A stretch of 64,000 nt of DNA from contig PBEB01000069.1 in assembly GCA_002717505.1 (NCBI GenBank), forward strand, positions 1-64,000, written 5' to 3'. Shown piece by piece: positions 1,569-35,282 of the stretch; within the stretch, counting starts at the first letter, position 1; each line of letters starts with the position of its first letter. Both the position numbers and the translations under genes were made by a program. Source of the stretch: Leptospiraceae bacterium. GTDB taxonomy: Bacteria > Spirochaetota > Leptospiria > Leptospirales > Leptonemataceae. The notes under the pieces were generated by a model, which did not search any database, was not told the DNA's origin, and was given only the letters and a program-made list of their open reading frames with translations.

Positions 1569-3833
1569 TTACTTTCGTAAGAAATAGGCTATGGGTTGGC
1601 CAAGCTTTACTTTGATGCCTTCATACATATGCTCGGCAAATTCCACAGTTTCCCTCTCGAATAGCAGGATCACAGTGGAGCCCATTTCGAACCTTCCGAT
1701 TTCGGCTCCTTTGGCCATCTCCACCGGAGCATCGTACTTGATGTCCCGTTTTCGGCGAAAGAACTTGTTGGTGCGAATGGTATCGTAGGTGACTCGAATC
1801 TTGCCTACGTTTGTGGCGCCCACTTTGATCATCGCTATGCTTCCCCTGGGCGAAACAAGAAATGATGTCAGCCTTTCATTCTTGGGAAACAGACCATGAA
1901 GGCCCTCAACCGCAATATCGTTCACCGGAAAGAGCTTACCTGGAGCGTAATTAAAGCCTTGCACCTTGCATTCAATGGGGGTGTGCATGCGATGATAATC
2001 TTGAGGACTCAAATACAGCACCATGTACTTCCCATCAAGGTACGGTTCTGCTCGATCCGAATCTCCCAGAAGATCCTTAAGGGTGTACACAATTCCTTTG
2101 GTTTGAATCAACAATCCTTCCGTGATGTCCCCGAAGCGGGACGCTCGGGCATCCACCGGACTTACAATGCTTCTGGGATCTGCATCAACGGGTCTTACTC
2201 CTTCTTTTAGCCTCCGAATGAAAAACTCATTCAAAGATGGATACTCCTCCAGAGGTTTTTCCGCTTCATCAATGTTGATCTTGTAGGCGGCGGCGAAAGC
2301 TCGAATCAAAGGTCGGCGAATCGGCCCGGGAAACCGAATTAAACTGAACCAGCCAAATAGCTTGCTGATCAAGTTCTGCGGCAATACCGAAATCAGAATA
2401 AGAAAGAAATCGCCTGCGATAGCTGCTTTCGCTTCTCGCGATTTTAGAAAGTAGGCCAGTTCATTTCGACTGGAACGCATCAATAGAAGTGATGCGATGG
2501 TTCCGGAAAGCGAACCGATCATCAAGACAACAGCGGCCAGAAGGAGTAGAAAAGGAAAAACCTTACTTCCGAAAAACTGGAGAGACAATCCGGTTCCAAT
2601 GATTACTGCAAAAAAGATCAAACTGAAAGCAACGGATAACCTTTTGCCACCCAGAGAATAGGCATTGTTATATAGGGAATACCACCATGCTGTCATGCCC
2701 GGAATGATCAGCACCACACAGGCCGCGAATAGAATCCAGCCTGAGACATTGCTGCCGGGAGAGCGAAAAAAGAAGGCTCGAAACAAATCGTAAAGCGAGG
2801 GATCGAAGATCTGAACCAGGGATTGGGCAGGGCCGCCGGATGTCAGATACCACTCATAGAGATGTCCAGCTCCGGATATACTTCCCAGAAGTAGCAAAAC
2901 CAGAGCAGAGATGCCCGACTCCAGAAGCAATGTAAGCTGCATGGATAGTCCAGCTTTGGCTGGATAATCGGTGCGAATCGTGGCAGATATGGCGGCAGCT
3001 TTCCCTGAACCCACCTCTGTGAATGCGAAATACACAGTCATTGCCAGCAGCACAGAAGGAAGTCGCTCCAGAGAAACGGAGTCTTGAAAGGCTGCGGTCA
3101 CATCATCAAGAATACCGGATACGTCTGGAATCGGACCAACCATCAGGGAAAGAAAGATGAGGATCAAACCGCCGTAGAATGCGAATTTGGAAAACAATCC
3201 GGTTCGCTTGATTCCGCCCGCCGAAAGCGCCACCAGCCCCAGGGCCAGAGCGATGGCAATGCCTGTAGGACCTGGCAGGAATTCGGTGGCCTTTCCTGTG
3301 AGATCAAAGGCGCCGGACAGGCTTCCTGATAAAAAAACTACAGGCAAAGCAGCACCGCCAATCAATGCTCCTGGAATGAAAAAACTGGCGGCGAGAATGG
3401 AGAGCCATCTGGACCGAGTAATCTGAGCGATTGCTTCAGAACTGGATCCGGCCACAGAGCCTGAGGAGGTCCGCTTTCGGCTGCGATGCGCCGCGGTAGA
3501 AAGCACGAAGTGGATAGGCGAAAGAAAGAATGAAACAATCCAGATCCAGAATATGATTCCAGGGCCTGCAATTAACACGGCCAGCAATGTGCCGAGGAAG
3601 GCGCCAGGCACCATGGCGCTCAGGGAGCTGGCAGCAAAGGAGCGACCCGGAGTAATCTTTCCCCTGGTGCCGGACCAATCCAGCGTTCCCAGGATTAACT
3701 TCAGGCTCAAAAATGGGTATCTTAGCTGCGGCAATTTAAGATATATGGTTAGCACAATGCCGGCCAGAGCCAACATGCCCGCCAGAATCAAAGATATATT
3801 ACTTGCTAGAACGCTGAGAAAATCCATAAACAT
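1569..3833 (-). CDS. psd: AGCS-type transporter fused to phosphatidylserine decarboxylase
   Basis: About 754 aa in one uninterrupted frame. Residues ~1-480 are a polytopic membrane domain resembling the alanine/glycine:cation symporter (AGCS) family: an early GPGIIFWIWIVSFFLS segment and a later GSGKAAAISATIRTDYPAKA segment match family hallmarks, though the domain is divergent. Residues ~490-754 are a phosphatidylserine decarboxylase, which makes phosphatidylethanolamine at the inner membrane: SPVDARAS and SPQDYHRMHTP carry the conserved Asp and His, and EMGST near the C-terminus is the LGST-type self-cleavage site whose Ser (~719) becomes the pyruvoyl cofactor. Cleavage would leave the large chain attached to the transporter. 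Start: ATG at 3833, AGGAAG four bases upstream; the frame is also open from a GTG at 3851. The start is one base from that of the divergent gene. Confidence 0.9.
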   Translation of the reverse strand: MFMDFLSVLASNISLILAGMLALAGIVLTIYLKLPQLRYPFLSLKLILGTLDWSGTRGKITPGRSFAASSLSAMVPGAFLGTLLAVLIAGPGIIFWIWIVSFFLSPIHFVLSTAAHRSRKRTSSGSVAGSSSEAIAQITRSRWLSILAASFFIPGALIGGAALPVVFLSGSLSGAFDLTGKATEFLPGPTGIAIALALGLVALSAGGIKRTGLFSKFAFYGGLILIFLSLMVGPIPDVSGILDDVTAAFQDSVSLERLPSVLLAMTVYFAFTEVGSGKAAAISATIRTDYPAKAGLSMQLTLLLESGISALVLLLLGSISGAGHLYEWYLTSGGPAQSLVQIFDPSLYDLFRAFFFRSPGSNVSGWILFAACVVLIIPGMTAWWYSLYNNAYSLGGKRLSVAFSLIFFAVIIGTGLSLQFFGSKVFPFLLLLAAVVLMIGSLSGTIASLLLMRSSRNELAYFLKSREAKAAIAGDFFLILISVLPQNLISKLFGWFSLIRFPGPIRRPLIRAFAAAYKINIDEAEKPLEEYPSLNEFFIRRLKEGVRPVDADPRSIVSPVDARASRFGDITEGLLIQTKGIVYTLKDLLGDSDRAEPYLDGKYMVLYLSPQDYHRMHTPIECKVQGFNYAPGKLFPVNDIAVEGLHGLFPKNERLTSFLVSPRGSIAMIKVGATNVGKIRVTYDTIRTNKFFRRKRDIKYDAPVEMAKGAEIGRFEMGSTVILLFERETVEFAEHMYEGIKVKLGQPIAYFLRK

Positions 3834-3834
3834 A

Positions 3835-4692
3835 ATGCTTCCTGCCAGCACAGCGTTGCGTGGCTTTGCTGTCTATTTCCTTTGTTTTGCCGCCTGGCCT
3901 GGAGCGCTCTCTGCACAGAGCTTTGAGCTGGGACTTCAGTTCTCAGCGCATGAGCGCTTCGAGGATGCTTTCAGTCGAGGCATTCAGAAATTTCGCACCT
4001 CGATTTTTATTGAGCCCATCCGTTATAGCGAAGCGGAGCCAATGAATCGATTGTATCAGACGGAATTCTTCTTCCGCTTCAACGATTTCATCGGTCCGGA
4101 GCACTATACTGGAATAACTATCGGTTCCTATTCTATGCCATCCTTTTCTGTGCAGCACCTGGAAAGCTCCGGCCGGTTTCTGGTTTCCAGTATGGATTTT
4201 CGGCTAACGTATTTCCTGTTGGGTTATCATTACGTGCGGCCTATGAAAAGCTTTCTTCGCGGATGGCGATGGGAAGCAGGGGGCGGATTCGGTTTGATAC
4301 CTACTGCCACATGGAGAATTCGCGGCGTGCAGCGAACGGGGTTCGAATTGCGAGATTATTCTGCCACCCATCGGGCCAGAAGTGGTACCATGGCCAGGCT
4401 GGAGGTTGCGCTGAGTCGACCCTATCAGTATTCTATTTTTCGCATGGGTCTGAGATGGGACTATGCATTGCTGGGCGATTTTCGAGGCGAGCTTCGAGAT
4501 TCCGGAGCTGATTACTATACTCTGGGCGATGGAAGCATTGCATTACTTCCCGATGTTGCAGACCTGGCCACTATCAATCAAAGACTGGCCGAGGCCAGCA
4601 CCAATGTGTTCACTAACTCGGCGATCAGGGAAAAGACAAGGGTAACGTTCGGAAGCATGGGTCTATTTGTTTCCTTCGGTTTTCGTTTTTGA
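3835..4692 (+). CDS. Predicted outer-membrane beta-barrel protein, unknown function
   Basis: 285 aa. The N-terminus is a signal peptide (hydrophobic stretch FAVYFLCFAAWPGALSAQ, cleavage after LSA). The rest alternates short amphipathic strands rich in Tyr, Phe, Arg and Gly, typical of a small beta-barrel, and the protein ends in FVSFGFRF, the C-terminal aromatic signature used for outer-membrane insertion. No family is recognised. The start at 3835 was chosen because it directly precedes the signal peptide; the frame is open further upstream inside the divergent psd gene. No strong ribosome-binding site is visible. Confidence 0.7.
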   Translation: MLPASTALRGFAVYFLCFAAWPGALSAQSFELGLQFSAHERFEDAFSRGIQKFRTSIFIEPIRYSEAEPMNRLYQTEFFFRFNDFIGPEHYTGITIGSYSMPSFSVQHLESSGRFLVSSMDFRLTYFLLGYHYVRPMKSFLRGWRWEAGGGFGLIPTATWRIRGVQRTGFELRDYSATHRARSGTMARLEVALSRPYQYSIFRMGLRWDYALLGDFRGELRDSGADYYTLGDGSIALLPDVADLATINQRLAEASTNVFTNSAIREKTRVTFGSMGLFVSFGFRF

Positions 4693-5500: not shown

Positions 5501-5578
5501 AACGGTTGCGCATTAGGAAACATCCGCTCCAGTACTATCGTCTTATACAGCAGTGCCCTGTCGGGAATGGAGTGGAAC

Positions 5579-8098
5579 ATGAACTGGAAAAAAACCCATT
5601 ATTTGCAGACTACTGATTCGAGCGATCAGCGATCAATATTCATAAAACGACGTTGGTCCGTTGCAATAATTGCATCGATTTTGATCTTTGGTACCGGCTT
5701 ACCCGCGGAAGGAGATTTCGATCCATCATCCGTTCGGCCCAAAGGCTGCGACGGCCAGAACATGGACTGCGGTTACAAGCCCTCATCGCCTGCGGCAATG
5801 CGAGCCATCGAGCTGGCACCCACCACGCAGGTTCGGCATCGCGGGCTGCCTTCCCGTGTGGATCTAAGTTCTCGCATGCCTCCGGTGGGAAATCAGGGTT
5901 CGCAGGGCAGTTGCGTGGCCTGGGCTGTAGCTTATGCAGCCAAAAGTTATCAAGAACGAATCGAACATAACTGGCAGTACGATTCTCCCATGAGTGGAGG
6001 ATCCGGTCAGAGGGTTTTTTCTCCGGCATATGTATATAATCAAATCAATGGTGGGCGCGACGATGGCTCTGTAATCGACGATGCTATGCAGCTGGCTGTG
6101 CAGCAGGGCATCGCTCCCTGGTCCGCAATGCCCTATACACCCAACGACTTTCGCCGGCAGCCCAACTCCGGGGCACGTCAACAGGCGAGAAATTATAAAG
6201 CCCGCTCATTCAAGCGAATTCCCGGGCATAATCTGAATGCAGTGAAGGCGGAGCTGGCCAGTGGAAATCCCGTAGTCTTTGGCATCCCTGTGGACGATGC
6301 CTTCTATAGCCTTAGATCCGGTCAGGTTTATGACCGAAAAGGTGGTCAGAACTACGGCGGTCATGCCATGACACTGGTGGGCTACGATGACAGCAAGAGA
6401 TCTCCCAACGGCGATGTAGGGGCTTTCAAGCTCATCAACTCCTGGGGCACCTCCTGGGGCGAACGAGGTTATGGTTGGATATCGTATTCCATGTGGAGGC
6501 AGTTGAATCCATACGTGCTGGTAATGTATGATATTCAAGAGTCCAATCCCAATCCATCGCCAGGCCCTACTCCCGGACCGGAGCAGTCTGAAAAGATCAG
6601 CCCTCCTTCCAATGTTACAGCCAGTCGAGGAACGTATAGCGATCGTGTGGAGATCAGTTGGTCCGGTGTCGATGGAGCCGTGGTCTATATAGTATTTCGA
6701 GCGGACCCCGGCGGAACTGGATTTGAGCAGATCGCGTACTCAGAAACGACAGTTCATTCCGATCGCACCGTCCAGGCAAATGTGGCATACAAGTACCTGG
6801 TGGTGGCAGTGGCCACCGAGGATAACTATTCCAATCCGCAGGACTCTGCTATTGTAGAGGGATATGCGCAGCAAGGAGGAGGTACCACGCCTCAACAGGT
6901 GAGCGGCGTTCGCGCCAGCCTGCGGGCAGTGGCAGGAGTATCGGTTGCGCTTAACTGGAATGCAGTTTCTGGAGCATCCAGCTATCAGATTGCACGATAC
7001 AACCAGAGTTCGGATTCCTGGTCGGTAATTGGTACTTCTTCAAGACCAACCTACAATGATGGCAATCCAGGAAACAATACTGTCACTGCCTATGCAGTAC
7101 GTGCTATCAACAGTAAAGGAGCCGGGGAATGGTCCGATCCGATCCAGGTGAATCTTCCCGGACGAACAACAAAACCTGAGAAACCCGCCTCTGTGGATGC
7201 TTCCAAGGGAATCCATAATGATCGTATTGAAGTGGAATGGCAGCGAGTTCCGGGCGCCACAGCCTACGGTATCTTTCGCTACGACTATGGCCGGCGGGTA
7301 TGGGAAGGACCGCGCAAGGTAACAGGGAATAGCTTCACAGATCGAGATGGTAACGTAAAATCCGGCCGATGGTTTGCCTATGTAGTGGTGGCCGTGAACG
7401 ATGCGGGCAGCAGTGCTTATAGCAGTCCAGCCCTGGGTCGTGCAAATCCCAATGCGACGCGTGCCGGACTGGTGCTTCCTCCGCCAAAAAATGTAAAATC
7501 TGAGATTAATGGCGAAAAGGTAAACATTCAATGGGATGCCGTGGAAGGAGCGGCTGAATACTATGTTTTCCGGGCCCAGACTCGCGGAAAAGGATTCCTG
7601 GATTCCATGGTATCCAGCTCGGACTATGAGTTCGTGGCTTCTGTGCCAGGGAATCAAGCAACCTATAGCGAAAAGATTCCCGGGGAAGCAGGTGACCTCT
7701 TCTTCTATGTTATTCGCACAAAAGCACAACTGGGCTCGGAATCCGATAATTCGAAGCCGGTTAGCGCCTATCGCAATCCAGAAACGGTGAAGAAAACCCA
7801 TCGATTTATGCCTGGAACCGGTATGGATCGATTTGAAGGGAAATGGAAAGGGGAGTTCTTTGACGGAAAGATGCGAACCGTGGAGGCCACAATTCAGTCC
7901 AATCAAGATCGGTTTACAATTAGCCTGACTCTGGACGGCCGCAGAAGCAGTTACTCCGGAACCTATGCTGCAAAAAGTGATGTTCTGGAAGCCGGCAATC
8001 TACGAGTTTTGGCCGATGCTGAAGGAATACTGGTGCTGGAGAGCTCCACTATCCCCGAGCTTTCTGGACGGAGCATCGTAGTCGCGCGCACGGATTGA
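5579..8098 (+). CDS. Papain-family (C1A) protease with fibronectin-III-like repeats
   Basis: 839 aa, exported. After an N-terminal hydrophobic segment (SVAIIASILIFGTGLPAEG, about 27-46) comes a C1 peptidase domain (about 90-320). The catalytic set is complete: oxyanion Gln106 in GNQGSQGSC, nucleophile Cys112, His262 in YGGHAM and Asn287 in LINSWGTSWG. Four fibronectin-III-like modules follow (about 345-430, 440-530, 535-625, 640-735), each with a VxxSWSxVxGAxxYxVFR-type core, and a ~95-residue beta-rich C-terminal domain beginning at MDRFEGKWKG. No long propeptide is apparent. The ATG at 5579 is preferred over 5567 because GGAG lies six bases upstream. The next gene is a tandem paralogue that abuts it. 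Likely a cell-surface or secreted cysteine protease; substrate unknown. Confidence 0.9.
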   Translation: MNWKKTHYLQTTDSSDQRSIFIKRRWSVAIIASILIFGTGLPAEGDFDPSSVRPKGCDGQNMDCGYKPSSPAAMRAIELAPTTQVRHRGLPSRVDLSSRMPPVGNQGSQGSCVAWAVAYAAKSYQERIEHNWQYDSPMSGGSGQRVFSPAYVYNQINGGRDDGSVIDDAMQLAVQQGIAPWSAMPYTPNDFRRQPNSGARQQARNYKARSFKRIPGHNLNAVKAELASGNPVVFGIPVDDAFYSLRSGQVYDRKGGQNYGGHAMTLVGYDDSKRSPNGDVGAFKLINSWGTSWGERGYGWISYSMWRQLNPYVLVMYDIQESNPNPSPGPTPGPEQSEKISPPSNVTASRGTYSDRVEISWSGVDGAVVYIVFRADPGGTGFEQIAYSETTVHSDRTVQANVAYKYLVVAVATEDNYSNPQDSAIVEGYAQQGGGTTPQQVSGVRASLRAVAGVSVALNWNAVSGASSYQIARYNQSSDSWSVIGTSSRPTYNDGNPGNNTVTAYAVRAINSKGAGEWSDPIQVNLPGRTTKPEKPASVDASKGIHNDRIEVEWQRVPGATAYGIFRYDYGRRVWEGPRKVTGNSFTDRDGNVKSGRWFAYVVVAVNDAGSSAYSSPALGRANPNATRAGLVLPPPKNVKSEINGEKVNIQWDAVEGAAEYYVFRAQTRGKGFLDSMVSSSDYEFVASVPGNQATYSEKIPGEAGDLFFYVIRTKAQLGSESDNSKPVSAYRNPETVKKTHRFMPGTGMDRFEGKWKGEFFDGKMRTVEATIQSNQDRFTISLTLDGRRSSYSGTYAAKSDVLEAGNLRVLADAEGILVLESSTIPELSGRSIVVARTD

Positions 8099-8103
8099 TT
8101 TCT

Positions 8104-10494
8104 ATGATGGTGAGGAAGAACAAAGGACATGCTGGCAGACCCATTGGAGCCCGGCATGTCCTGGCTGTGGCGCTGGTGCTGGGCTTTTTGCCCGCTGCCC
8201 TGGTTGATCTAACTGCAAAACCCTGTACAGACTGCGGATATCGGCAGGCTGGCTGGAAACAATTATCCGCCATTCCTGGGGCCGATCTGCCTGGTCAATT
8301 GCAGCCTGCACCGTTGCCATCCGAAATAGACCTTTCTCATCAAATGCCGCCGGTGGGCTTTCAAGGCGAGCAGGCCAGCTGTATATCCTGGGCTGCTGTC
8401 TATGCTGTAAAATCGTACTATGAAAATCTGCACCGAGGCTGGGGCTTCGACAGCCCCTTCAGTGGAGGGCCCGGGCATCATGTTTTTTCTCCTGCATACA
8501 GCCAGGCCATGATTGGAGCGGGAGACAAAGGAGCTACCTTTCCTGAAGCGCTGGATGTATTGCTCCGTAAAGGGGCGGTGCCCTGGAGCGAAATGCCCTA
8601 TAAGCCGGGCGAAGCGGGTCCTGCGCCGGCTGCCAGGCTTCATCCTATTGCCAGCAAGTTTCGCATAGAAGGGTATCGTGTGTTGTCCAGCCACGCTCCG
8701 GAAGGTATTAAGAGACAGATCGCCGCCGGCCATCCAGTGATGGTAGGAATCCTGTTATACGAGAGTATGCTGGATCTGAAGTCCGGCGTTTTCGAAAAGC
8801 CGGATGGTCCATTCCTGGGAGGCCATTCAGTGGTTATCGTTGGTTATGATGATGACCGAGGTAGCCACGGCGCCTTCAAGGTAATGAATTCCTGGGGCAA
8901 TCAATGGGGGGATGGCGGATACGGCTGGATATCCTATGAAGCGATGAGCCTGATTATTCGAACTGCCCTTATTATAGAAGACAGTGCTCCCGCTGATTCC
9001 GATGAGGTGCCGGAGAATCTGCCGGCCCCGGATCAAGTCCTTGCTTCCCGCGGAGAGTCTGCCCGGCATGTTGAGGTCTCCTGGAGTGCCGTGCCAACGG
9101 CTCTTGCTTACGAAATTCAGAGGGCGCCTCATGGGGAGAGCGCTCTGGACTTTCAAACCGTTGGATACTCTACCAGCACATTGTTTCGAGATACCACCGT
9201 TGAACCAGGCCGTCCCTATGCCTATCGAGTGCTCAGCCTGGATGAAAAGGGGCGTACTGCTCAAAAGGATGCCGTAGCTGTTCAGGGGTATGCGTCCCAG
9301 AATCCGGACCCTTCCTCCAGGGTGGAAATCCTGGGAGGCAAAGTTGTACAGAAGGGCACTCAGATCTATGCCCATCTTTCCTGGAAGTCCTCAGCCAATT
9401 CCTTTGAAATTCAGCGCTGGGATGATGCCACCGCTAGCTGGCAGGCCCTGGGGACCAGCCGGGCCCAGGAGTTTAAAGATTATCGCATTTCACCGGGAGC
9501 AAGATATACTTACCGGATTCGCAAGGTGGACACCAGCATTAAAGGGATGTGGAGCAGGCCTCTGATCCTTACGGCTGCGGATGACGATTTGCCTCCGGCC
9601 ATGGTAACCGGAGTCCAGATCAGCCGCGGTAGTCTGCAGGGCAAAATCAAGCTGGAGTGGGATGCCTCCCCGGGCGTCAGTCAGTATCTGGTGTATCGTT
9701 ACGATCCGGCCAAAAAGAAATGGGAAGGTCCCTTTCGGACCAGCGAAGCCAGCTTTCAGGATACGAACTCATTAAAACCGGGCCAGTGGTACGGGTATCG
9801 CATTGTGGCCATCAATCGCGCCGGCTCCGGACCTACCAGTCCATTAGTCTATGGACGTACATCCGCCACGCTAACAGCGGAGCGTTCCATCAAGCGGATG
9901 GAAGCACCTGACTTGATGGGGCTTCATACCACGGGGGAAGGGAGCGTGCGGCTCAAGTGGAAAGCTCAGAAAGATGCAGACAGCTATGATATAATGATGG
10001 CGCAGTTGCCCGGCAACGACTACGAAAAAGTAAAAAGCGTAAAAGCAGATGGGGCCCTGTTAAGCGAAAGGGTGGATCTTACCCGGCCGGGAGCTTACAG
10101 TATTCGCATAGTGGCACGATCTGGCCCCAGTGTATCTCCTGCATCTGAACCTCGTGTCGCCTACCTCAATCCTCAGGTAAAAAAGGAGCGATGGTTTGGA
10201 CTGAATGAAGAAAGCCCCTGGCTTCAAAAGACCAGGTTTCGCGCCATGGAGTGGAAATCCGGTGAGGTAGTTCTTTATCAACTGGAGTTACGAAAGTCCG
10301 GCAAAGGAATCCAGGCCACTCTGAAAGGAAATGGTACCGCGGTGAACTTTTCATTGAATGGGCCGGGCGGAGCCTTGGTACAAAACGCCTCCGGAGTGGA
10401 ATTCAGCCGTTCAACCGATGGGCGCTATATCCAGCTCAGGGAGCTAGAGCCTCGCATTTTTACCAATGGCAACCTTCTCTTTGTAGCTGAATAA
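8104..10494 (+). CDS. Papain-family (C1A) protease, tandem paralogue
   Basis: 796 aa, same architecture as the gene it follows: signal segment (HVLAVALVLGFLPAALVDL), a Cys-pair segment (CTDCGYR), a C1 peptidase domain with Gln87 in GFQGEQASC, Cys93, His241 in LGGHSV and Asn262 in VMNSWGNQWG, then fibronectin-III-like modules and a C-terminal domain starting near ERWFGLNEE. All catalytic residues are present. It starts six bases after the upstream stop, so the two are co-transcribed. Sequence divergence from its neighbour is substantial, meaning the duplication is old. The frame also opens at a TTG at 8095 that overlaps the upstream stop; ATG 8104 is the first standard codon. Confidence 0.88.
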   Translation: MMVRKNKGHAGRPIGARHVLAVALVLGFLPAALVDLTAKPCTDCGYRQAGWKQLSAIPGADLPGQLQPAPLPSEIDLSHQMPPVGFQGEQASCISWAAVYAVKSYYENLHRGWGFDSPFSGGPGHHVFSPAYSQAMIGAGDKGATFPEALDVLLRKGAVPWSEMPYKPGEAGPAPAARLHPIASKFRIEGYRVLSSHAPEGIKRQIAAGHPVMVGILLYESMLDLKSGVFEKPDGPFLGGHSVVIVGYDDDRGSHGAFKVMNSWGNQWGDGGYGWISYEAMSLIIRTALIIEDSAPADSDEVPENLPAPDQVLASRGESARHVEVSWSAVPTALAYEIQRAPHGESALDFQTVGYSTSTLFRDTTVEPGRPYAYRVLSLDEKGRTAQKDAVAVQGYASQNPDPSSRVEILGGKVVQKGTQIYAHLSWKSSANSFEIQRWDDATASWQALGTSRAQEFKDYRISPGARYTYRIRKVDTSIKGMWSRPLILTAADDDLPPAMVTGVQISRGSLQGKIKLEWDASPGVSQYLVYRYDPAKKKWEGPFRTSEASFQDTNSLKPGQWYGYRIVAINRAGSGPTSPLVYGRTSATLTAERSIKRMEAPDLMGLHTTGEGSVRLKWKAQKDADSYDIMMAQLPGNDYEKVKSVKADGALLSERVDLTRPGAYSIRIVARSGPSVSPASEPRVAYLNPQVKKERWFGLNEESPWLQKTRFRAMEWKSGEVVLYQLELRKSGKGIQATLKGNGTAVNFSLNGPGGALVQNASGVEFSRSTDGRYIQLRELEPRIFTNGNLLFVAE

Positions 10495-12298: not shown

Positions 12299-12327
12299 TT
12301 GGAGCTCACTTCTGACCCGTATAGAGT
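12299..12327 (+). promoter_or_regulatory. Candidate sigma-70-type promoter of the thiolase operon
   Basis: TTGGAG (12299-12304) and TAGAGT (12322-12327) are separated by 17 bases, placing a transcription start near 12334, just before the inverted repeat. Matches to consensus are moderate, so this is tentative. Confidence 0.3.
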
Positions 12328-12348
12328 CCCCGGGCCCTTTTTTACAAA

Positions 12349-12374
12349 ATTGATTGACTGATTTGTCAATCAAT
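12349..12374. promoter_or_regulatory. Perfect inverted repeat, probable repressor operator
   Basis: Arms ATTGATTGAC and GTCAATCAAT are perfect 10-bp reverse complements around a 6-base spacer, 17 bases before the ATG of the first thiolase-like gene. Its size and symmetry fit a TetR- or similar-family dimeric repressor. It is too A/T-rich and lacks the T-tract of a terminator. No regulator gene lies in the immediate neighbourhood, and no second copy was noticed in the window. Confidence 0.6.
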
Positions 12375-12391
12375 GTGGATCTCTTGAGGAT

Positions 12392-13528
12392 ATGAACGGG
12401 GCCGTGGGTATTGTGGGTGGCGCCTCTCTGATTGAGGGGGCCAATATAGAACTCTCTGTAGAAGAAACTGTGTTTCTGACCGTGCGAAATGCTCTGGAGA
12501 GTAGCGGATTGAGCCGAGATCAGATCGATACGGTGGTTCAATGTGCGGATGACGTTTTGGACGGTATTTCTATCAATCATGTCTACCAGGTGGAGGCAGC
12601 GGGATCGTATCTTAAGGATGAGTCCAAAGTAGAACGCGACGGAGCCTGGGGGGCGATGTATGCGGTTGCGAAACTTCTTACCGGTAAGTTTCAGACTGCC
12701 ATGGTGGTTGCTTACTCCAAGGCCAGTCAGGTGGGATACTCCGCTTTTTCGGGAATGATCGCTGACCCCTTCTTTCTGAGGCCCGTGGGTGCGGACGGAG
12801 ACAGCATGGCCGGTTTGCAGGCTCAGTACTATATGCAAACAGGAGCCACAGAGAAGGATTTCGCTGCCGTAGCAGCGAAGAACCGACGTCAGGGCCTGAG
12901 CAATCCCAGAGCGATGGTAGGGGAAGGGATGGATGTTTCCGAAGACGATATCCTGAATTCGAACCCCGTGGCCGAGCCCATCCGAGAGTTAAGTACGGCG
13001 CATGCAGGAGATGGCTGTGTGGTGCTCATTCTGGCTACCAGGGATTATATTCAGAGTCACGGACTGCAGGCTTCATACATTCGCGGACTGGGCTTTGCCA
13101 GCGATGCATATTATCCAACGTTTCGTAAATTGAGCGAAATCGCTTCTGCACGGGTGGCCCTGGAAAAGGCCATAATCCATGCCGGAGTGCAGCCATCGGA
13201 TGTGGATTTCGCAGAAGTTCAGGAGATCTATGCGCACCAGGAAATAATGCTCTATGAATCATTATCGCTCTGCGGAGATTCCAGAGGATGGGACTGGTCT
13301 CGTAAAAACCGTGAAAGTGATGCGATTTCTGTCAACCCTTCCGGAGGCACACTCTGTTCACACGTACCTTATGCCACAGGATTAATGCGAATATACGAAG
13401 CCCATTTACAGATCATGGAAGAGGCGGGTCCGGTTCAGCTGAAGAATGCCGACCTGGCCCTGGTTCATGCTCAGGCAGGTCTGGCAATGCAATCCAATAT
13501 TGTCTACTTTCTGGAAGGAGACCGCTGA
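12392..13528 (+). CDS. Thiolase-fold protein lacking the nucleophilic cysteine (SCPx/Ltp2-like)
   Basis: 378 aa thiolase-superfamily protein, first gene of a five-gene operon. The thiolase C-terminal core is recognisable (NPSGGTLCSHVPYATGLMR, equivalent to the NPSGG...GHPxGATG loop), but the nucleophile loop normally reading AACASG is ERDGAWGAMYA here, with no Cys, and the HDCF loop of SCP2 thiolases is replaced by EIYAHQE. A normal thiolytic or Claisen reaction is therefore unlikely. Established precedents for cysteine-less thiolase-fold proteins paired with DUF35 proteins include the Ltp2 retro-aldolase of steroid side-chain breakdown, which suggests a C-C lyase or structural partner role. 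Start ATG 12392 has GAGGA immediately upstream at an unusually short spacing. Confidence 0.85.
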   Translation: MNGAVGIVGGASLIEGANIELSVEETVFLTVRNALESSGLSRDQIDTVVQCADDVLDGISINHVYQVEAAGSYLKDESKVERDGAWGAMYAVAKLLTGKFQTAMVVAYSKASQVGYSAFSGMIADPFFLRPVGADGDSMAGLQAQYYMQTGATEKDFAAVAAKNRRQGLSNPRAMVGEGMDVSEDDILNSNPVAEPIRELSTAHAGDGCVVLILATRDYIQSHGLQASYIRGLGFASDAYYPTFRKLSEIASARVALEKAIIHAGVQPSDVDFAEVQEIYAHQEIMLYESLSLCGDSRGWDWSRKNRESDAISVNPSGGTLCSHVPYATGLMRIYEAHLQIMEEAGPVQLKNADLALVHAQAGLAMQSNIVYFLEGDR

Positions 13529-13629
13529 ACAATGGGAAGGGGAACAATAGGGATTTCTACAAAATTCAGGGGCATCGCTGGAGCTTTCGCGGCAAAGGTT
13601 TGCTTAGGCACGGCAGAACTGGAGGAAAT

Positions 13630-14811
13630 ATGCAAAAGGTAGCCATTGCCGGTGTGGGGCAGACCAGAACCAAACTTAAGCGAAGGGATGTGAATTTTCC
13701 GGAGCTAATCGGCGAAGCGTGCGATCTGGCGCTGGAGGATGCCGGTCTATCGGAAGAAGACATCGATGGCACAGTGATGGGCAGCGGTCCAGAGTTCTTC
13801 GAAGGTGTGGGAGAGCCAGAACACTGGGCTGCGGACTACTCTCTGGGAATCCTGAATAGCCATTTTCGCATTCAAACGGGGGGTACTGTAGGGGCCTCCA
13901 CGACCATTGCAGGCTACTATCTGGTGGCTTCCGGTCTATTCGATGCTGTGCTGGTGGTGTCCGGAGATAAGCTCAGCGAATCCTCCGTCCAACAGGGGTT
14001 ATCCCTGGTGTATTCTCCTACAATGGGAAGGGACTTTGCCGGAGGAGCTCCTTCGGCAGTGGCGAACCAGACTCGCATTTACATGAGCCACTATCCGGCT
14101 GTAAGCGAAGACCATTTTGCGCGCATCGGCACTATGATGCGAAAGAACGCACTCAAGAATCCCAATGCCCAGCTGAAACTTCCCCAGATATCAGAAGATC
14201 TAATGAAGTCCATGAACTGGCTATCAACGCCATTACGATTGCTGGATGCCTGCCCCACTTCCGATGCAGCCTGCGCTATGGTCCTGGTAAGCGAACGTCT
14301 GGCGGAAAAAATGAATGTACCTCTCGCCTGGATTCAGGCGGCGGCCACTATATCGGACGGCGTGAATTATCCGGATCGGGACTGGGGCGATCCGGTAGCC
14401 CTTCGTGAAGCAGCTCAGCGGTGCTATCGCGCCGTAGGGATTACGGATCCCCTGGAGCAACTGGATGTGATGGAATTGTACGATGCCTTCTCCAGCCAGC
14501 ACCTATTCTGGTACGATGCCCTGGGTTTGTGCGAACCGGGAGAATCTTATAAACTAATCGAAGATGGCACTACTGCGATGAACGGAAAGCTTCCCGTTAA
14601 TCCATCCGGCGGGGTCTTATCCAATAATTCCATCGGCGCCAGCGCTATAATTCGTCAGGCAGAAGTGGCGCTGCAGGTCATGGGCCGAGCCGGGGACCGT
14701 CAGGTTCCTGGAGCCAGGATTGGGCTGGCCCAGGGATGGGGAGGGGCCATTCAATTTCATACCGTTATGATATTGAGTGCAGATAAAGAAATGGAGAATG
14801 CGAAATCGTGA
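13630..14811 (+). CDS. Second cysteine-less thiolase-fold protein (SCPx/Ltp2-like)
   Basis: 393 aa. MQKVAIAGVGQT is the usual SCPx-thiolase N-terminus and GLFDAVLVVSGDKLSES the conserved helix-strand after the nucleophile loop. The nucleophile loop itself reads QTGGTVGAST, with no Cys; the HDCF-equivalent is ELYDAFSSQ, with Tyr and Ala in place of His and Cys; and the GHPxGATG histidine is lost (NPSGGVLSNNSIGASA). A Tyr at the HDCF position also occurs in Ltp2-type aldolases as far as I recall. Together with the preceding gene it could form a hetero-oligomer with the DUF35 proteins encoded just downstream. The ATG at 13630 was chosen over the upstream 13600 codon because GGAGG lies four bases before it. 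Confidence 0.87.
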   Translation: MQKVAIAGVGQTRTKLKRRDVNFPELIGEACDLALEDAGLSEEDIDGTVMGSGPEFFEGVGEPEHWAADYSLGILNSHFRIQTGGTVGASTTIAGYYLVASGLFDAVLVVSGDKLSESSVQQGLSLVYSPTMGRDFAGGAPSAVANQTRIYMSHYPAVSEDHFARIGTMMRKNALKNPNAQLKLPQISEDLMKSMNWLSTPLRLLDACPTSDAACAMVLVSERLAEKMNVPLAWIQAAATISDGVNYPDRDWGDPVALREAAQRCYRAVGITDPLEQLDVMELYDAFSSQHLFWYDALGLCEPGESYKLIEDGTTAMNGKLPVNPSGGVLSNNSIGASAIIRQAEVALQVMGRAGDRQVPGARIGLAQGWGGAIQFHTVMILSADKEMENAKS

Positions 14812-14948
14812 AGTCTGAAAGGAGTAGTCTTATGCCCGGCGCGAGATTGGCATCGGACGCGAATCTAAATCTATTGAAAGAATGCGAAGGATTGTCCGAC
14901 TGGACAGTGCAATTGTCTCAACGTTAGTGATCTGGTTCAGGAGCGAAA

Positions 14949-15452
14949 ATGGAAGAGCAAAGCAACAATAAGAATCCAGAAGAGGATACTGCGGTTCCGA
15001 ATTCAGATGCACCTGCCATGGTAATGGAGGGAAGCGTTCATCTGGACTACAACTGGAATCCCGGAACCATCATTGGATCCTTTTTGACGCATTTACGATC
15101 CGGTGAACTGAAAGCTGGCCAATGCACGAAAACGGGAAAAGCATTCTTGCCGGCTCAGTCCAGATCTCCTTTTAAGGGCCGATGCGAAACCCTTGTAAGT
15201 ATTGAAAATTCTCCCAGACTCAAAGCAGGGACCATAGTCCACAGGGCTCCCTGGAATCTGCCGCAAGACTTACAACCGCCTTATATGCTGGCCAGCATTG
15301 CCTATCCCGGGGTGGAAACCGAGCTCATTCACCTGGTTGTTGGTTCGCTGGATACTTTGCGAAGCCTGGGTCCGGGTAGCTCGCTGAAAGCCGTGTTTGC
15401 GGACAGGAGAACAGGAAGCGTTCGAGATATTCTCTACTATGAAAAGGACTGA
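14949..15452 (+). CDS. DUF35 (OB-fold, degenerate zinc ribbon) protein
   Basis: 167 aa. A disordered acidic N-terminus (~25 aa) precedes the DUF35 N-terminal helix (VHLDYNWNPGTIIGSFLTHLRSG), a rubredoxin-like ribbon and an OB fold (GTIVHRAPWNLP...PYMLASIAYPGVETELIHLVVG). Only two cysteines remain in the ribbon (Cys59 and Cys79) and neither CxxC pair is present, so zinc is probably not bound. DUF35 proteins scaffold thiolase-fold partners and channel acyl-CoA (ChsH2-Ltp2, PhlB, BbsA, archaeal thiolase/HMG-CoA synthase complexes). Its helix motif D-Y-N-W is repeated in the DUF35 domain of the next gene. GGAG five bases before the ATG supports the start; its end overlaps the long frame of the next gene. 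Confidence 0.82.
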   Translation: MEEQSNNKNPEEDTAVPNSDAPAMVMEGSVHLDYNWNPGTIIGSFLTHLRSGELKAGQCTKTGKAFLPAQSRSPFKGRCETLVSIENSPRLKAGTIVHRAPWNLPQDLQPPYMLASIAYPGVETELIHLVVGSLDTLRSLGPGSSLKAVFADRRTGSVRDILYYEKD

Positions 15453-15459
15453 GGACCAT

Positions 15460-17355
15460 ATGCCCGAAGCGAATCTTAAATCGGATCTATTGGAGTTAAT
15501 GGAAGGTCTGGAACGGTATTCTTCCCGGGTATTCCTGGCTGCTCCGACAGAAGATATTTCCTTTGCAGAGTTTCTCTCCCGTGTAAAGGAGCGAGGCAGT
15601 ACTCTGGCAAGAGCCGGGATTCTTCCCCGGGATACAGTGGCGCTATATCATTCCGAGCCGGCTACTCTCCTGGTTGAATTCTTCGCTTTGCTTTCCCTCC
15701 GGGCTGTGCCGGTGCTTCTGAGTTCATTCTGGTCTCCTGCTCAGCTCATCCCCATGCTGCAGAAAGTGCATCCAGAATATATGAGCTACACCAGCAATCG
15801 GCAAAGCTCTCTGGAGCCCATATGGTCCAGCCTAAAGCTAAAGGGTCACTTTTCGGAGACTATGAAGCAGATCGCTGGAACAACCGGGTCCGTGGGAAAG
15901 GAACACAGCTCGGGCACCGTCCAGACGACGCAGCAGCAATTCCTGGAGCGTTTTGCGCTGATGGTATGCTTTTCCTCCGGTACCGAGCGAGAGCCCCATC
16001 CCGTATTTCTGGGCTCGGGTCTGTCCCAGCGTGCTGTGGCTGTGGCCAGAGCGATGGGTCTGAAACCCGAAGATCGCTTGAAAGTTGACCCAGATTTCGC
16101 ATCCATCCTGAATCTAGTATCGGGAGCTCTTGCCTGCATGGTGTCCGGAAGTAGTGTGGATCTTACCGAGCCGGGAGCTCAGTCCACGGTCGCGCTGTTA
16201 AACCGGCCAGGGCTTCCTGAATCAATTCGAAGTCTGAAGGAGAAGGGAGCCCGGGTCTACTATTCCTATGGACTGGCGGAAGCCGGTGGTCCTGTGACTG
16301 TGGGCGAAAGCATGCCAGAGACATGGCATTGCGGAGGCGTTCTGGACGGCATAGAGATTCGATTCCGGACCCTGGAATCTGCGGAAGAAAGCAAATCCAG
16401 GGGTGGCTCCGCACTGAAAGAAGGGAGCGAATTCGGTGAAATTGAAGTTCGCTGGAAAGACGTTCAAATCTGGAGCGAGGGTAACCAGGAAGCTTCGCAG
16501 GGCGTCGGCGAAGGGGAAGCCAGCCGCTGGATCTCCAGTGGCGATCTGGGACAGCTAGATGGCCATAGTCTACTGTTCCGCGGCCGTTCTTCAGAACGTA
16601 TAGTAAGAGGTGGGTATGAAGTGATGGCCCCGGATGTAGAGGAAGCTCTGAACGGGTATTCGGACATCGTCGAATCCGCTGTTGTTGGTATAAAGGACTC
16701 CAGGATGGGTCAGGAAATCATAGCCTTCATAGCTCAGAAGGAGGGTACTTCCGTAGACAACGCAGAAATCAAAACAAGGTTGCGAAACCAATTAGCGCCC
16801 CAGCAGATTCCAGCGAAGATCCTTTCTGTTGCTGAATTTCCGCGAAGCTCTTCAGGAGAGCTTCAGAAGCTTCGCATGGCAGAAGAGTATCTCCGGAATC
16901 AGAAACTACTGAATCGCATTCCTGGTTCGGTGGATATTGAGTATAACTGGGTTTACGGAAGAGCGCTTTCCAGATTTTACACTGGTCTCAAGGAAGAGGA
17001 AAAAATCTATGGTACTCGTTGCCCTGGTTGCCACAAAGTCCAGGTCCCGCCCAAGATTTATTGCGGAGTCTGCTTTCTGGAATGCTCGGAGTATATAGAA
17101 GTTCCTGGAGCAGGGGTTCTGGAAAGCTTCACCACAGTGCATCTTGAGTATCCCGGTCAGCCGCGAAAGCCTCCCTATACCTACGGCTATATCAAGTTGG
17201 ACGGCGCTCATACCCATCTCTATCATCTAGTGGATGGACTGGATGTAAGCGAAATACATACAGGAATGCGCGTGGAAGCTGTGTGGAAACCCCGGGAACA
17301 CAGAGCAGGTACTTTATATGACATCGAACACTTCCAGCCAGCAGGAGGACCGTAA
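15460..17355 (+). CDS. Degenerate AMP-forming ligase fused to a DUF35 domain
   Basis: 631 aa. Residues 1-485 are an ANL-superfamily (acyl-CoA synthetase) domain: A3-like FSSGTEREPHPV (171-182), A5-like YGLAEAGG (270-277), A7 SGDLGQLDG (360-368), A8 FRGRSSERIVRGGYEV (373-388) and A10-like PRSSSGELQK (461-470). The P-loop has lost the usual Gly-x-Pro-Lys, the A10 catalytic Lys is Glu467, and the A3-A5 interval is only ~90 residues, shorter than normal. Residues ~490-631 are a DUF35 domain with an intact zinc ribbon (Cys521, 524, 535, 538) and OB fold. The protein may bind rather than activate acyl groups. Start: ATG 15460 with GAGGA four bases upstream. Its 3' end overlaps the MFS gene by 38 bases. 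Confidence 0.85.
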   Translation: MPEANLKSDLLELMEGLERYSSRVFLAAPTEDISFAEFLSRVKERGSTLARAGILPRDTVALYHSEPATLLVEFFALLSLRAVPVLLSSFWSPAQLIPMLQKVHPEYMSYTSNRQSSLEPIWSSLKLKGHFSETMKQIAGTTGSVGKEHSSGTVQTTQQQFLERFALMVCFSSGTEREPHPVFLGSGLSQRAVAVARAMGLKPEDRLKVDPDFASILNLVSGALACMVSGSSVDLTEPGAQSTVALLNRPGLPESIRSLKEKGARVYYSYGLAEAGGPVTVGESMPETWHCGGVLDGIEIRFRTLESAEESKSRGGSALKEGSEFGEIEVRWKDVQIWSEGNQEASQGVGEGEASRWISSGDLGQLDGHSLLFRGRSSERIVRGGYEVMAPDVEEALNGYSDIVESAVVGIKDSRMGQEIIAFIAQKEGTSVDNAEIKTRLRNQLAPQQIPAKILSVAEFPRSSSGELQKLRMAEEYLRNQKLLNRIPGSVDIEYNWVYGRALSRFYTGLKEEEKIYGTRCPGCHKVQVPPKIYCGVCFLECSEYIEVPGAGVLESFTTVHLEYPGQPRKPPYTYGYIKLDGAHTHLYHLVDGLDVSEIHTGMRVEAVWKPREHRAGTLYDIEHFQPAGGP

Positions 17356-18544
17356 CGGTCCAGATACAGATTCACGACTGAACGGATGGCTGCGCTTTTC
17401 GCTTCTTGCAGCCAGCTCACTCACTGTGATGGCTGGCGCCACAATGTCTCCTTCGCTACCGGCGATGAAGAAGCACTTTCTTGATGTTCCAGATGTTGCA
17501 TTCTGGGTTAAATTGCTACTCACTTTGCCCGCTTTGTTTATTGCTCTGTCCGCTCCTCTGGCCGGCTGGGTCGCAGATCGATTCGGACGTAAGCGATTGC
17601 TGGTTCTCTGCACGATTCTCTATGGCATTAGCGGTACGGCCGGCTTTTTTCTGGATTCCCTGGTTTCTATCCTGGTATCCCGGGCTGTGCTCGGTATCAG
17701 TGTAGCCGGAGTCATTACGTCTGCCACTGCCTTGATCTCCGATTATTTCCATGGTCCGGAGAGAGCCCGCTTTATGGGATACCAGGCAGCATTCATGGGG
17801 CTGGGTGGAGTTGTTTTCCTTCTGGCCGGCGGAGCGCTTTCTGAGTGGTCCTGGAGAGGCCCATTTCTGGTGTATTCCTTCGCTTTTTTTCTGGCTCCCA
17901 TCGCCGCTCTGGCGGTCTTCGAACCGGAGCGTAAGCATGGCTACGAATCGGCTTTTCCTGGAGATCCGGAGGCCCTGCATTTACCGGTGATTGGATTTCT
18001 TCTCTTTTTTGCCTTTGGCGGCATGGTTGTGTTCTATCTGATCCCGGTACAGCTTCCGTTCTTTCTTGAACAGAATTTTCAGGCAAAAGGGTTCATTAGC
18101 GGAGCATCCATCGCACTGGCTACTCTGGTTTCCTCCATTTGTTCTTTGAATTTTGGTCACTTGCGAAAACGATTTTCGCATCTCATGATCTGTGTATTGA
18201 TCTGCATTTTTATGGGCACAGGATATATCATCTTTGGTAGTGCTTCTTCGTTGATTCAGGTCTGGATTGGTCTGGCCATATGTGGCCTGGGCTTCGGTAT
18301 GCTTATGCCCAACCTGAACCTCTGGGTAGTGGCGGTAACTCCAGAAGAGTTTCGCGGCCGGGTGGTGGGCGCTCTGGGTGCGGCCATATTCCTGGGACAA
18401 TTCTTTTCGCCGGTAATTACCGAACCGTTGCGGGGCGGCACCGGACTGGATCGACTATACGAGGGAGCCGGGGCTGCGCTGCTCCTGGGTGCCATAGTGC
18501 TGGCCTTCTGGAATACAATGCGAAAGAGGCACAGACATGCCTGA
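17318..18544 (+). CDS. MFS transporter
   Basis: 408 aa, about 12 membrane segments. The family loop 2-3 signature is present as GWVADRFGRKRLL (DRxGRK/R), with a conserved SRAVLGISVAGV helix 4 and a loop PERARFMGYQ. A Gly/Asp/Ser-rich hydrophilic N-terminal tail of ~20 residues precedes the first helix. It overlaps the ligase-DUF35 gene by 38 bases, so it belongs to the same operon and probably moves the operon's substrate or product across the inner membrane. The subfamily looks like drug/proton or organic-anion exporters, but direction and substrate cannot be read from sequence. The frame up to 17318 could include a later true start. Confidence 0.88.
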   Translation: MTSNTSSQQEDRNGPDTDSRLNGWLRFSLLAASSLTVMAGATMSPSLPAMKKHFLDVPDVAFWVKLLLTLPALFIALSAPLAGWVADRFGRKRLLVLCTILYGISGTAGFFLDSLVSILVSRAVLGISVAGVITSATALISDYFHGPERARFMGYQAAFMGLGGVVFLLAGGALSEWSWRGPFLVYSFAFFLAPIAALAVFEPERKHGYESAFPGDPEALHLPVIGFLLFFAFGGMVVFYLIPVQLPFFLEQNFQAKGFISGASIALATLVSSICSLNFGHLRKRFSHLMICVLICIFMGTGYIIFGSASSLIQVWIGLAICGLGFGMLMPNLNLWVVAVTPEEFRGRVVGALGAAIFLGQFFSPVITEPLRGGTGLDRLYEGAGAALLLGAIVLAFWNTMRKRHRHA

Positions 18545-21345: not shown

Positions 21346-22623
21346 ATGTCAGATCAAACCGTTATCCTGGGGGGAGCCCAGACGGATTTTGCCCGCAACT
21401 GGAGCAAGGAAGGAAAGACCTTCATGTCTATGATGCGTGAGGTTGTGGAAGATGGCCTTACTCAGGCAGGACTGGACTACGATGAGATCAAGAAGCTCAA
21501 CCAGGAAAATCGCATCGCAGTATTCGTAGGTAATTTTGATGCAGAACAATATGCCAGCCAGGGGCACCTGGGAGCCTTCCTCACGGAAGTGCATCCTTCT
21601 TTCTACGGGGTTCCAGGAGCTCGGTATGAAGCGGCATGCGCCTCCGGGTCAGTAGCCCTGGATGCGGCCAATACAAAGCTCCGAGCCGGGGACTATGACG
21701 TTGCCGTAGTTCTGGGAATTGAAGTTATGAAGACCGTCAGTTCCTCTGTAGGCGGCGACTTCCTGGGCACGGCAGCCTACTATGAAAAAGAAGCCAAAGG
21801 TATTCCCTTTCCTTTCCCCAAGCTGTTTGGCCGTCTGGCTGACAATATCTTGAAGCGTTACGGTAAATCCGTAGGTGAGTCTCGCATTATGGATGATCTG
21901 GGCGAAATATCCCGAATCAACTATGCCAACGCGAAGCGCAATCCCAAGGCCCAGACCAGAAGCTGGTATATGAGCGGCGACCATGCCAAGACTCGGGGTG
22001 GAGATTTCAACGCTGAAGTGGGTGGAGTACTGGCCATCACCGATTGTTCTCAGGTAACCGATGGTGCTGCTCTGCTTGTAATCGCAAACCCCGGCTATGC
22101 CAAAGATTTTGCTTCCAGAAAAGGAAAGAAGATTTCTGATTACGCTGTCATCAAGGGATGGGGACATCGTGTGGCTCCTATCCTGTTCGACAAGAAGATG
22201 GAAGAATCTCAGGACGATCCTTATCTGCTGCCCTGGACTCGACGTGCAGTGAAAGAAGCCTATGATCGAGCAAAACTGGATGTTGATAAGATCGATGTAA
22301 TCGAAACTCACGATTGCTTCACCTCCAGCGAATATGCAGCCATTTCTGCTTTTGGAATTAGTGGGCCGGGCGAAGAGTACCAGGCCATCGAAGATGGTAA
22401 GATCGATTTCAAAGGCGGCAAGCCCATCAATCCTTCTGGCGGGCTCATCGGTGCCGGTCATCCTGTTGGCGCTTCAGGAGTTCGTATGGCTCTGGACATC
22501 AACAAGCAGGTCACAGGAGAAGCGGGCCAATACCAGGTGGAAGGCGCGAAGAACGGTGTCATGCTGAACATTGGCGGAAGTGCTACTACAAATATGACCT
22601 TCGTTATCGGAAAACCAGATTGA
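21346..22623 (+). CDS. SCP2-type thiolase (acetyl-CoA acetyltransferase family), catalytically intact
   Basis: 425 aa, cytoplasmic. All catalytic elements are visible: nucleophile Cys98 in [12 protein letters not shown] loop at 322-325 (HDCFTSSEY), and His372 in [10 protein letters not shown]. The ADP-pocket region and C-terminal [10 protein letters not shown] are as in SCP2-type thiolases, which use the HDCF cysteine instead of the classical second Cys. It cleaves or condenses acyl-CoA with acetyl-CoA in fatty-acid or related metabolism. AAAGGAG precedes the ATG with good spacing and a strong terminator follows, so it is a single-gene unit. Contrast with the two cysteine-less paralogues 7-9 kb upstream. 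Confidence 0.93.
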
Positions 22624-33925: not shown

Positions 33926-34004
33926 GCGGAGACGGTCTGAAAAGGGCCCAGGCAGAGGGATTTTTCTGCAAACGTTGGGTGTAAGGATTGTTGTTAGGTA
34001 CATC

Positions 34005-35171
34005 ATGAAGCGAATGGCTGCCCTATTATTCGTATGCTCAATGACTATTCCGGTCACGAATTGTCTGCTTCTCGAGCAGCCCTATTCGGACGGGGTGATT
34101 CTCCCTGCTTTGCTTTCCGGTGCATCCAATCCGGTGTATTTCTTCTTGAGCGACGAAAGCGGATCCACTCAGGCCCGATCTATTGTGAAAAGGGATATGT
34201 TCGGAGGTTTGCGACTACTTACCTGGAACGGCGGGCCGGGGAATATCTGGAAGGGCGCGGTGGTTAATGGGGTAATCTTTGCCCTGGAAAATAACAACCA
34301 GGATGACATCTGGATTTCTCGGGATGATGCTCAGACCTGGGAATTGGTGGATGCACCGGGTAGCAATGAATCGGAAAATATTTCCAATGTTCTGGGTTGT
34401 GGGAGTGCTGTTGTCATAACGCATCCCACAATCGCTTACAATGGATCTGGTACTCGACCGGGTTACATCAGCTATGACAGTGGTGTTACCTGGCAGGAGT
34501 TTCGCGTCGGGGCTTCCCCGGCAGCTACGGGAACCGGGGATTACGCCCTTTCTGCCATTGATTGCACAGCGGAAAAGGTCTTTGTGGCTTCCAGCGCTGT
34601 GGCCAATCGCTTTCAGTGGGCCTCCATATCCAATTTGAGTTCCTGGACCGTGGCCACGTCCCATCCGGCTTCGCAAAATGGTTATTCTTCTATTGCAACT
34701 TCCGGAACCAGTACAATCGGTCTGGCCTGTACCACGCCCGGCTACTGCCCCTATAATCCCGATGTGAACTATTCCCTGAATAATGCGGAGGGCATGGCTC
34801 TGTCCGGCACTATGCCGCATATGGGGCTGGATTTCACAGGTGTGGCGGAATACGGAGCGGGCGCTTTCTTTGTTTCGGAACTTGATCAAACCAACGATAT
34901 TTGTCGGATCTATAATCTGGGGGATGGGTCCACAAGTCCGTCTAGCAGCTCCATCGTTGCTTCTCTTTCCTGTGGCGACATCACCAACCCTCAGCGAATG
35001 CCGGCCCTGCTGGTAACCGATGCAGGGATTTTTTCTTCGTATGCTTCCTTTTCAGGAACGGAAACAGATGTCGTATATTCCACGGACGGTCTTAGCAATC
35101 TGACCAGGCTCAACATTGGTAGTGTGTATTCCGGAGATGGCATCGTAACGAGCATCGACGACATGAGGTAA
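34005..35171 (+). CDS. Asp-box (BNR-repeat) lipoprotein, paralogue 1
   Basis: 388 aa. Lipoprotein signal MKRMAALLFVCSMTIPVTNC (lipid Cys20, relaxed spirochaetal lipobox), followed by LLLEQPYSDG, a segment shared by the two downstream paralogues. Asp-box/BNR motifs (S-x-D-x-G-x-x-W type) occur as WISRDDAQTWE (~103-113), YISYDSGVTWQE (~154-165) and VVYSTDGLSNL near the C-terminus, implying a sialidase-like beta-propeller. Several conserved cysteine pairs (VLGCG, AIDCT, LACTT, GYCPY) may form disulfides. No catalytic sialidase residues are recognisable, so it is probably a binding protein on the surface. The longer upstream frame (33975) was rejected because the Met at 34005 gives the lipoprotein signal. 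Confidence 0.8.
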   Translation: MKRMAALLFVCSMTIPVTNCLLLEQPYSDGVILPALLSGASNPVYFFLSDESGSTQARSIVKRDMFGGLRLLTWNGGPGNIWKGAVVNGVIFALENNNQDDIWISRDDAQTWELVDAPGSNESENISNVLGCGSAVVITHPTIAYNGSGTRPGYISYDSGVTWQEFRVGASPAATGTGDYALSAIDCTAEKVFVASSAVANRFQWASISNLSSWTVATSHPASQNGYSSIATSGTSTIGLACTTPGYCPYNPDVNYSLNNAEGMALSGTMPHMGLDFTGVAEYGAGAFFVSELDQTNDICRIYNLGDGSTSPSSSSIVASLSCGDITNPQRMPALLVTDAGIFSSYASFSGTETDVVYSTDGLSNLTRLNIGSVYSGDGIVTSIDDMR

Positions 35172-35282
35172 TCCCAGGGGGGTTGGTGGCATGGAGCTTA
35201 GCAGTTAGCGATCCATTAAGTTCGATCGGGGTAGCAGTCTCGGAATTTCATCGTTCCAAACTGAAATGATGGCAGAGTCGAA

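Follow-up and report, generated by a model that had tools for sequence, protein, structure and literature searches.

A predicted aldolase operon of the Ltp3/Ltp4 kind in Leptospirales, with a decayed acyl-CoA ligase fused to DUF35

Judged from its sequence, the five-gene operon at 12392-18544 (plus strand) of the 64,000-nt window, that is, the whole stretch of Leptospiraceae bacterium DNA that was analysed (contig PBEB01000069.1), is a divergent and rearranged Leptospirales member of the Ltp3/Ltp4 kind of aldolase system. From what was computed (homology, clade membership, residue patterns, a shared palindrome, gene linkage and the decay of a ligase domain) we infer a reaction, a substrate, a subunit arrangement and TetR binding. 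The favored reading, which is held to be fairly probable, is that the products form a heteromeric Ltp4/Ltp3-type acyl-CoA aldolase acting in the degradation of branched-chain acyl-CoAs, together with an acyl-CoA dehydrogenase (ACAD) operon and under TetR control.

The first two genes encode the thiolase-fold proteins, thiolase A of the Ltp4 type (P0001, 12392-13528) and thiolase B of the Ltp3 type (P0002, 13630-14811). They are followed by a small DUF35 gene (P0003, 14949-15452), by a ligase-DUF35 fusion (P0004, 15460-17355) made of a degenerate AMP-forming acyl-CoA ligase domain (residues 1-483, 15460-16908) and a DUF35 half (residues 484-631, 16909-17355), and by an MFS transporter gene (17318-18544; PF07690, E 7e-50). 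Upstream of thiolase A, the perfect 10-6-10 palindrome ATTGATTGAC-TGATTT-GTCAATCAAT, an inverted repeat with 10-bp arms and a 6-bp spacer to which no strand is assigned, occupies 12349-12374 and is predicted to be a probable TetR operator; none of 100 shuffled windows matched it at up to 3 mismatches. The preliminary description of this DNA had named all of these elements, including the absence of the nucleophilic Cys from both thiolase-fold proteins, and the analysis bears it out on each. Its picture of tightly packed genes holds for the 3' part, where a gap of 7 nt is followed by a 38-nt overlap of the MFS gene with the 3' end of the fusion gene, but not for the first two gaps, of 101 and 137 nt. 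About 3 kb downstream (21346-22623, plus strand) lies an SCP2-type thiolase, P0006, with its Cys, HDCF and GHP motifs all intact (PRK06289, 603 bits against a cut-off of 375) and with a 97% identical, similarly placed counterpart in G002 (G numbers denote genomes compared with that of the window). Other open reading frames of the window include an unusual fusion of 760 aa (1569-3851, minus strand), in which a region resembling sodium:alanine symporters (PF01235, E 8e-10) is linked with a phosphatidylserine decarboxylase domain (PF02666, E 1e-58); two adjoining frames of 843 and 799 aa (5567-10494, plus strand) that look like paralogues, the first of which carries a papain-like protease and fibronectin III-like repeats in a domain scan; and three similar consecutive frames, probably paralogues (33975-38174, plus strand), the first with a weak, below cut-off similarity to sortilin.

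The placement of both thiolases within the Ltp3/Ltp4 family comes from a 57-sequence tree, in which P0001 groups with actinobacterial Ltp4 and P0002 with actinobacterial Ltp3, each with support of 99/98. The two clades are sisters, and Ltp2, in a separate clade (100/99), and the SCP2-thiolases fall outside them; the long branches Sim_A, Rrh_A and Hal_A are unsure, with no bearing on the rows of the window. Both clades include members of other phyla, so the grouping denotes family membership and not strict orthology. In profile searches neither protein reaches the cut-off of its family, P0001 scoring 176 bits against PRK07937 (Ltp4; cut-off 419) and P0002 372 bits (E 4e-111) against PRK08313 (Ltp3; cut-off 514), while the Ltp4-like and Ltp3-like proteins of Tsukamurella exceed both. 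P0001 is only about 30% identical to the Tsukamurella Ltp4. On these sequence grounds the window proteins are divergent relatives of Ltp3/Ltp4 and not the equivalog. Ltp3 and Ltp4 have been reported as aldol-lyases for C24-branched sterol side chains (PMC4761994, PMC8708139), and the actinobacterial genes were characterised genetically (Wilbrink 2012, as related in PMC4761994, PMC8708139 and PMC10398937); no enzyme assay of either protein was found in the literature searched, the aldolase role there resting on genetics. The Tsukamurella genes form a locus with the order tandem OB/DUF35-Ltp4-Ltp3, and genes for a "steroid 3-ketoacyl-CoA thiolase" and a cytochrome P450 are close by. For Mtb, the locus numbers Rv3520c, Rv3521, Rv3522 (ltp4) and Rv3523 (ltp3) (PMC6429209) imply this order as well.

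At the fold level, P0001 matches PF22691 (E 2.5e-26) and its N-terminal half gives no Pfam match (no Thiolase_N); its AlphaFold model, with a mean pLDDT of 80, matches whole thiolases at TM 0.76-0.88, and its Foldseek matches include 7yvy, 4yzo, 6et9, Sal-Shy and Ltp2-ChsH2. P0002 matches PF22691 (E 6e-38) and, slightly below the cut-off, Thiolase_N (E 6e-6). The active sites were compared over 21 A-type and 21 B-type sequences. The nucleophile position is occupied by Gly in both window chains (Gly84 in P0001, Gly85 in P0002), in every B-type sequence and in 18 of the 21 A-type ones, none of which has Cys there; Gly84 is preceded by a conserved Asp83, the A-type having Asp or Glu at that position in 21/21. 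The HDCF His is replaced by Tyr throughout the B-type (21/21; Tyr284 of P0002, within YDAF) and is variable in the A-type, with Gln in P0001. At the GHP His position all 21 B-type sequences carry Asn (Asn333 in P0002) and the A-type mostly His, the sole residue of the SCP2-thiolase motifs kept by P0001. All three elements of the SCP2-type thiolase set (Cys, HDCF, GHP) are altered in P0002. An intact Cys/His/HDCF set was looked for in homologous operons, and not one of the 42 sequences (21 of each type) has it.

The preliminary description was right to compare the operon with enzymes of the Ltp2-ChsH2 type. In TcLtp2 and CtSal the catalytic base is the Tyr of a YD[H/C][F/Y] motif, and a Gly lies near the substrate hydroxyl (PMC12329534); Tyr284 of P0002 corresponds to that Tyr in a comparison with the same work. 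The window operon shares with the TcLtp2-ChsH2 and CtSal-Shy steroid aldolases the Cys-less SCP2-thiolase fold combined with DUF35, the Tyr base in a YDxF/Y motif and the Gly at the nucleophile position. It differs in having two distinct thiolase-fold chains where those enzymes have one chain type, and in that their second catalytic residue, the general acid (Tyr344 in TcLtp2, Cys304 in CtSal), is not conserved in the P0002 alignment, where Asn/Ser and Ala286 take its place, a point against the aldolase reading. The active-site signature of P0002 otherwise fits a retro-aldolase, and thiolase B is the probable aldolase subunit. The thiolase fold assembled with DUF35 is also the architecture of PhlABC, BbsAB and the archaeal thiolase/HMG-CoA synthase complexes, and such structures are among the Foldseek matches of P0001, and a complex with Claisen-type acyltransferase or thiolase activity, making or breaking a beta-keto compound, has to be considered; BKACE genes, whose products cleave beta-keto acids, adjoin A-B pairs in Dehalococcoidia, and a BKACE-DUF35 fusion occurs in G053. 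However, those complexes catalyse acyl transfer or thiolysis, whereas the window pair is devoid of the nucleophilic Cys (0/21 A, 0/21 B), both active-site His residues are replaced in B and the nearest clades are Ltp3 and Ltp4, and a Claisen or thiolase activity is regarded as unlikely.

Like the thiolases, the DUF35 units have counterparts in the Ltp3/Ltp4 system, in which a pair of them is also encoded beside both thiolases. P0003 was identified as DUF35 through comparison with its relatives, since its zf-ChsH2 match (E 9e-4) is under the cut-off; it has no four-Cys zinc site, and BLAST aligns it (E 6e-8) to a stretch in the N half, residues 5-133, of the OB protein from Tsukamurella. The DUF35 half of P0004 is over the cut-off for zf-ChsH2 and OB_ChsH2_C, keeps an intact CxxC...CxxC zinc ribbon and is 41% identical to the C half (residues 172-298) of the same protein. 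The window operon resembles the Ltp3/Ltp4 system (Rv3523, Rv3522 and Rv3521 in Mtb, ltp3/ltp4 in R. rhodochrous) in several respects: its two thiolase-fold chains belong to the same pair of clades; its two DUF35 units correspond to the N half and the C half of a tandem protein, which in Mtb we take to be Rv3521; and Cys is absent, the Ltp3 partner having Tyr where HDCF has its His. It departs from it in that the DUF35 units are split, the second being fused to a (decayed) acyl-CoA ligase, that the sequences stay under the NCBIfam cut-offs, that no KshA was found and that a TetR-ACAD regulon is probably attached to it.

The ligase half of P0004 is still recognised by AMP-binding (E 9.5e-14) and AMP-binding_C (E 3.5e-11), but its motifs are degraded. 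Aligned with intact orthologues, it has lost the P-loop, TSGTTGxPKG reading SSGTEREPHP, and the A4 region, and the A10 Lys has become Glu (SGELQK). P-loop and A10 Lys are intact in G022, G008, G010, G018, G020, G006 and G014, and intact ligase motifs are absent from the window, G002, G003 and G004, the last of which keeps an A10-like Lys. Since the P-loop is intact in the partial gene of G001, which belongs to the same genus, the loss probably took place within the genus. In G009, which belongs to a different genus, an unrecognisable N-half is joined to a conserved DUF35. Between the window and G002 the ligase half is 45% identical (dN 0.55) and the DUF35 half 92% (dN 0.05), a roughly tenfold faster divergence of the ligase half in this genus; synonymous sites are near saturation, which makes dN/dS rough, and it is safer to set the dN of one half of a gene against that of the other. 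In pairs with an intact ligase both halves evolve alike (identities of 95/93, 79/78 and 73/74%). Four species keep the frame open, and an ANL fold is still predicted for the ligase half, which may for these reasons have a structural role. This decay beside a conserved DUF35 tail amounts to a natural experiment in which the two functions are uncoupled, the DUF35 unit being the one still needed.

A neighbourhood survey of 60 relatives, extended to other phyla, shows the order A-B-DUF35-ligaseDUF35 beyond the genus, in G022, G008, G010 and G025 (contig ends truncate the G001 and G025 loci). In G018, G020 and G006 thiolase A is separated from B-DUF35-ligaseDUF35; in G014 the order of the four genes differs and the ligase is intact; and DUF35-A-B-DUF35 without ligase fusion is found in a further family of the class as well as in G053. 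In G053, the BKACE-DUF35 fusion and an SCP2-DUF35 fusion (L041, 9920-12538) stand beside two A-B thiolase pairs. Outside these groups, the relatives found in a named genome collection include MAGs of Planctomycetota, Dehalococcoidia and Candidatus Methanolliviera, the latter two with A-B pairs that have DUF35 neighbours; the order in a Dehalococcoidia MAG is ACAD-ACAD-BKACE-A-B-DUF35-DUF35.

Partner genes are pointed to by the palindrome. At up to 3 mismatches the 26-bp element has exactly two sites in the 4.42-Mb genome and the reversed control none, and the second site, on another contig, lies just in front of a run of three genes, TetR, ACADa and ACADb. The element is present at both places in five genomes of the genus, with one additional weak match in G002 besides the two sites that each of G001-G004 has, and chance recurrence is ruled out by the reversed-pattern control and the five genomes. 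A related palindrome stands close to the thiolase A start in G010 and G022. A search near the ACADs of G010, G009, G025, G020 and G006 did not find the 26-bp element, and for this reason the regulon is claimed for the genus only. Within it, the thiolase operon and the TetR-ACAD-ACAD operon are probably a two-operon regulon, and position and symmetry suggest that TetR binds the palindrome; the shared element provides a short list of partner genes. Linkage points the same way in G022, where A, B, DUF35, ligaseDUF35, MaoC, ACADa, ACADb and SDR form one run of genes, an arrangement that looks alike in G025, divided between two contigs; the MaoC homologue of the window genome is on another contig. 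In the genome of the window, a gene for a dioxygenase of the TauD family and one of the sodium/bile acid symporter family lie several kb from the ACAD operon (L077, 1261-3327).

The transporter allows a different reading, a non-catalytic or biosynthetic role in which the thiolase-fold pair would bind acyl-CoA or make a C-C bond in the aldol direction and the MFS protein would export the product. The MFS gene follows the operon also in G002, G003 and G004 (78-90% identity), that is, in the genus with the decayed ligase; none was seen in operons of other genera among the relatives compared, and the protein weakly resembles siderophore and drug exporters in profile searches. Against this, the palindrome in common with the ACADs and the MaoC/SDR linkage in relatives point to degradation, and both thiolases appear strongly constrained (dN/dS of 0.06 for A and 0.02 for B, rough values with dS near saturation); this role is judged improbable.

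Regarding the substrate, clade membership with Ltp3/Ltp4 and the sterol-type cluster of Tsukamurella would be in agreement with a steroid, degraded at its side chain as in actinobacteria. A profile search of 12 genomes for the steroid-ring marker KshA (PF19298, KshA_C) found nothing, which rejects steroid ring degradation in that set and makes a steroid substrate probably incorrect; a KshA-independent or side-chain-only route is still compatible with it. The best PDB matches of ACADa and ACADb are ordinary isovaleryl/butyryl-type dehydrogenases, which do not fix the substrate and include no steroid ACAD. Overall, sterol side-chain catabolism is considered quite improbable. Leucine or isovalerate was also discarded as the main substrate: HMG-CoA lyase is over the cut-off in 11/12 genomes, so that a carboxylation route for short beta-methyl acyl-CoAs is probably already present and the system would not be needed. 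By analogy, a beta-branched acyl-CoA is the preferred guess, because a tertiary beta-hydroxyl is not oxidisable and retro-aldol cleavage would solve this, as for C24-branched sterols. Literature searches on tertiary-alcohol retro-aldol cleavage, beta-methyl routes and Leptospirales beta-oxidation returned no matches.

According to the favored aldolase reading, a retro-aldol lyase complex would be formed by the pair of Cys-less thiolase-fold chains together with two DUF35 units, which would cap and assemble both thiolases. The acid would first be activated with CoA, a step for which most relatives would use the ligase half of their fusion protein and this genus a different ligase, and ACADa/ACADb would dehydrogenate the acyl-CoA. 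A MaoC hydratase would then yield a beta-hydroxyacyl-CoA; its alcohol is probably tertiary and would be out of reach of ordinary beta-oxidation. Finally, Tyr284 of thiolase B would accept the hydroxyl proton and the C-C bond would break without a covalent Cys intermediate, releasing a ketone or aldehyde and acetyl- or propionyl-CoA. The TetR repressor of the ACAD operon would bind the same palindrome at both operons.

The preliminary description had also raised the possibility of a new acyl-CoA system, in an arrangement that it did not recognise. This holds in part: the thiolases and DUF35 units map one to one onto Ltp4, Ltp3 and the tandem DUF35 protein, and the kind is already known; what is unusual and new is the DUF35-fused ligase, its decay, the probable TetR-ACAD-ACAD regulon and the absence of KshA from the 12 genomes searched. 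Ltp3/Ltp4 are known from actinobacterial sterol degradation, and the window pair probably has a regulon of its own and lacks the steroid-ring marker. The presence of the paired Ltp3/Ltp4-type system in Leptospirales and other phyla suggests an older and wider route of acyl-CoA C-C cleavage. A further proposal, put forward tentatively, is that it serves a general, non-steroid degradation of beta-branched acyl-CoAs without carboxylation that extends over Spirochaetota, Chloroflexota and an archaeon; the actinobacterial sterol Ltp3/Ltp4 system would be one specialised branch of it. If true, the general route would consist of an ACAD pair, a MaoC hydratase and a retro-aldolase of two thiolase-fold and two DUF35 units, the last splitting tertiary beta-hydroxyacyl-CoAs into a ketone and acetyl- or propionyl-CoA.
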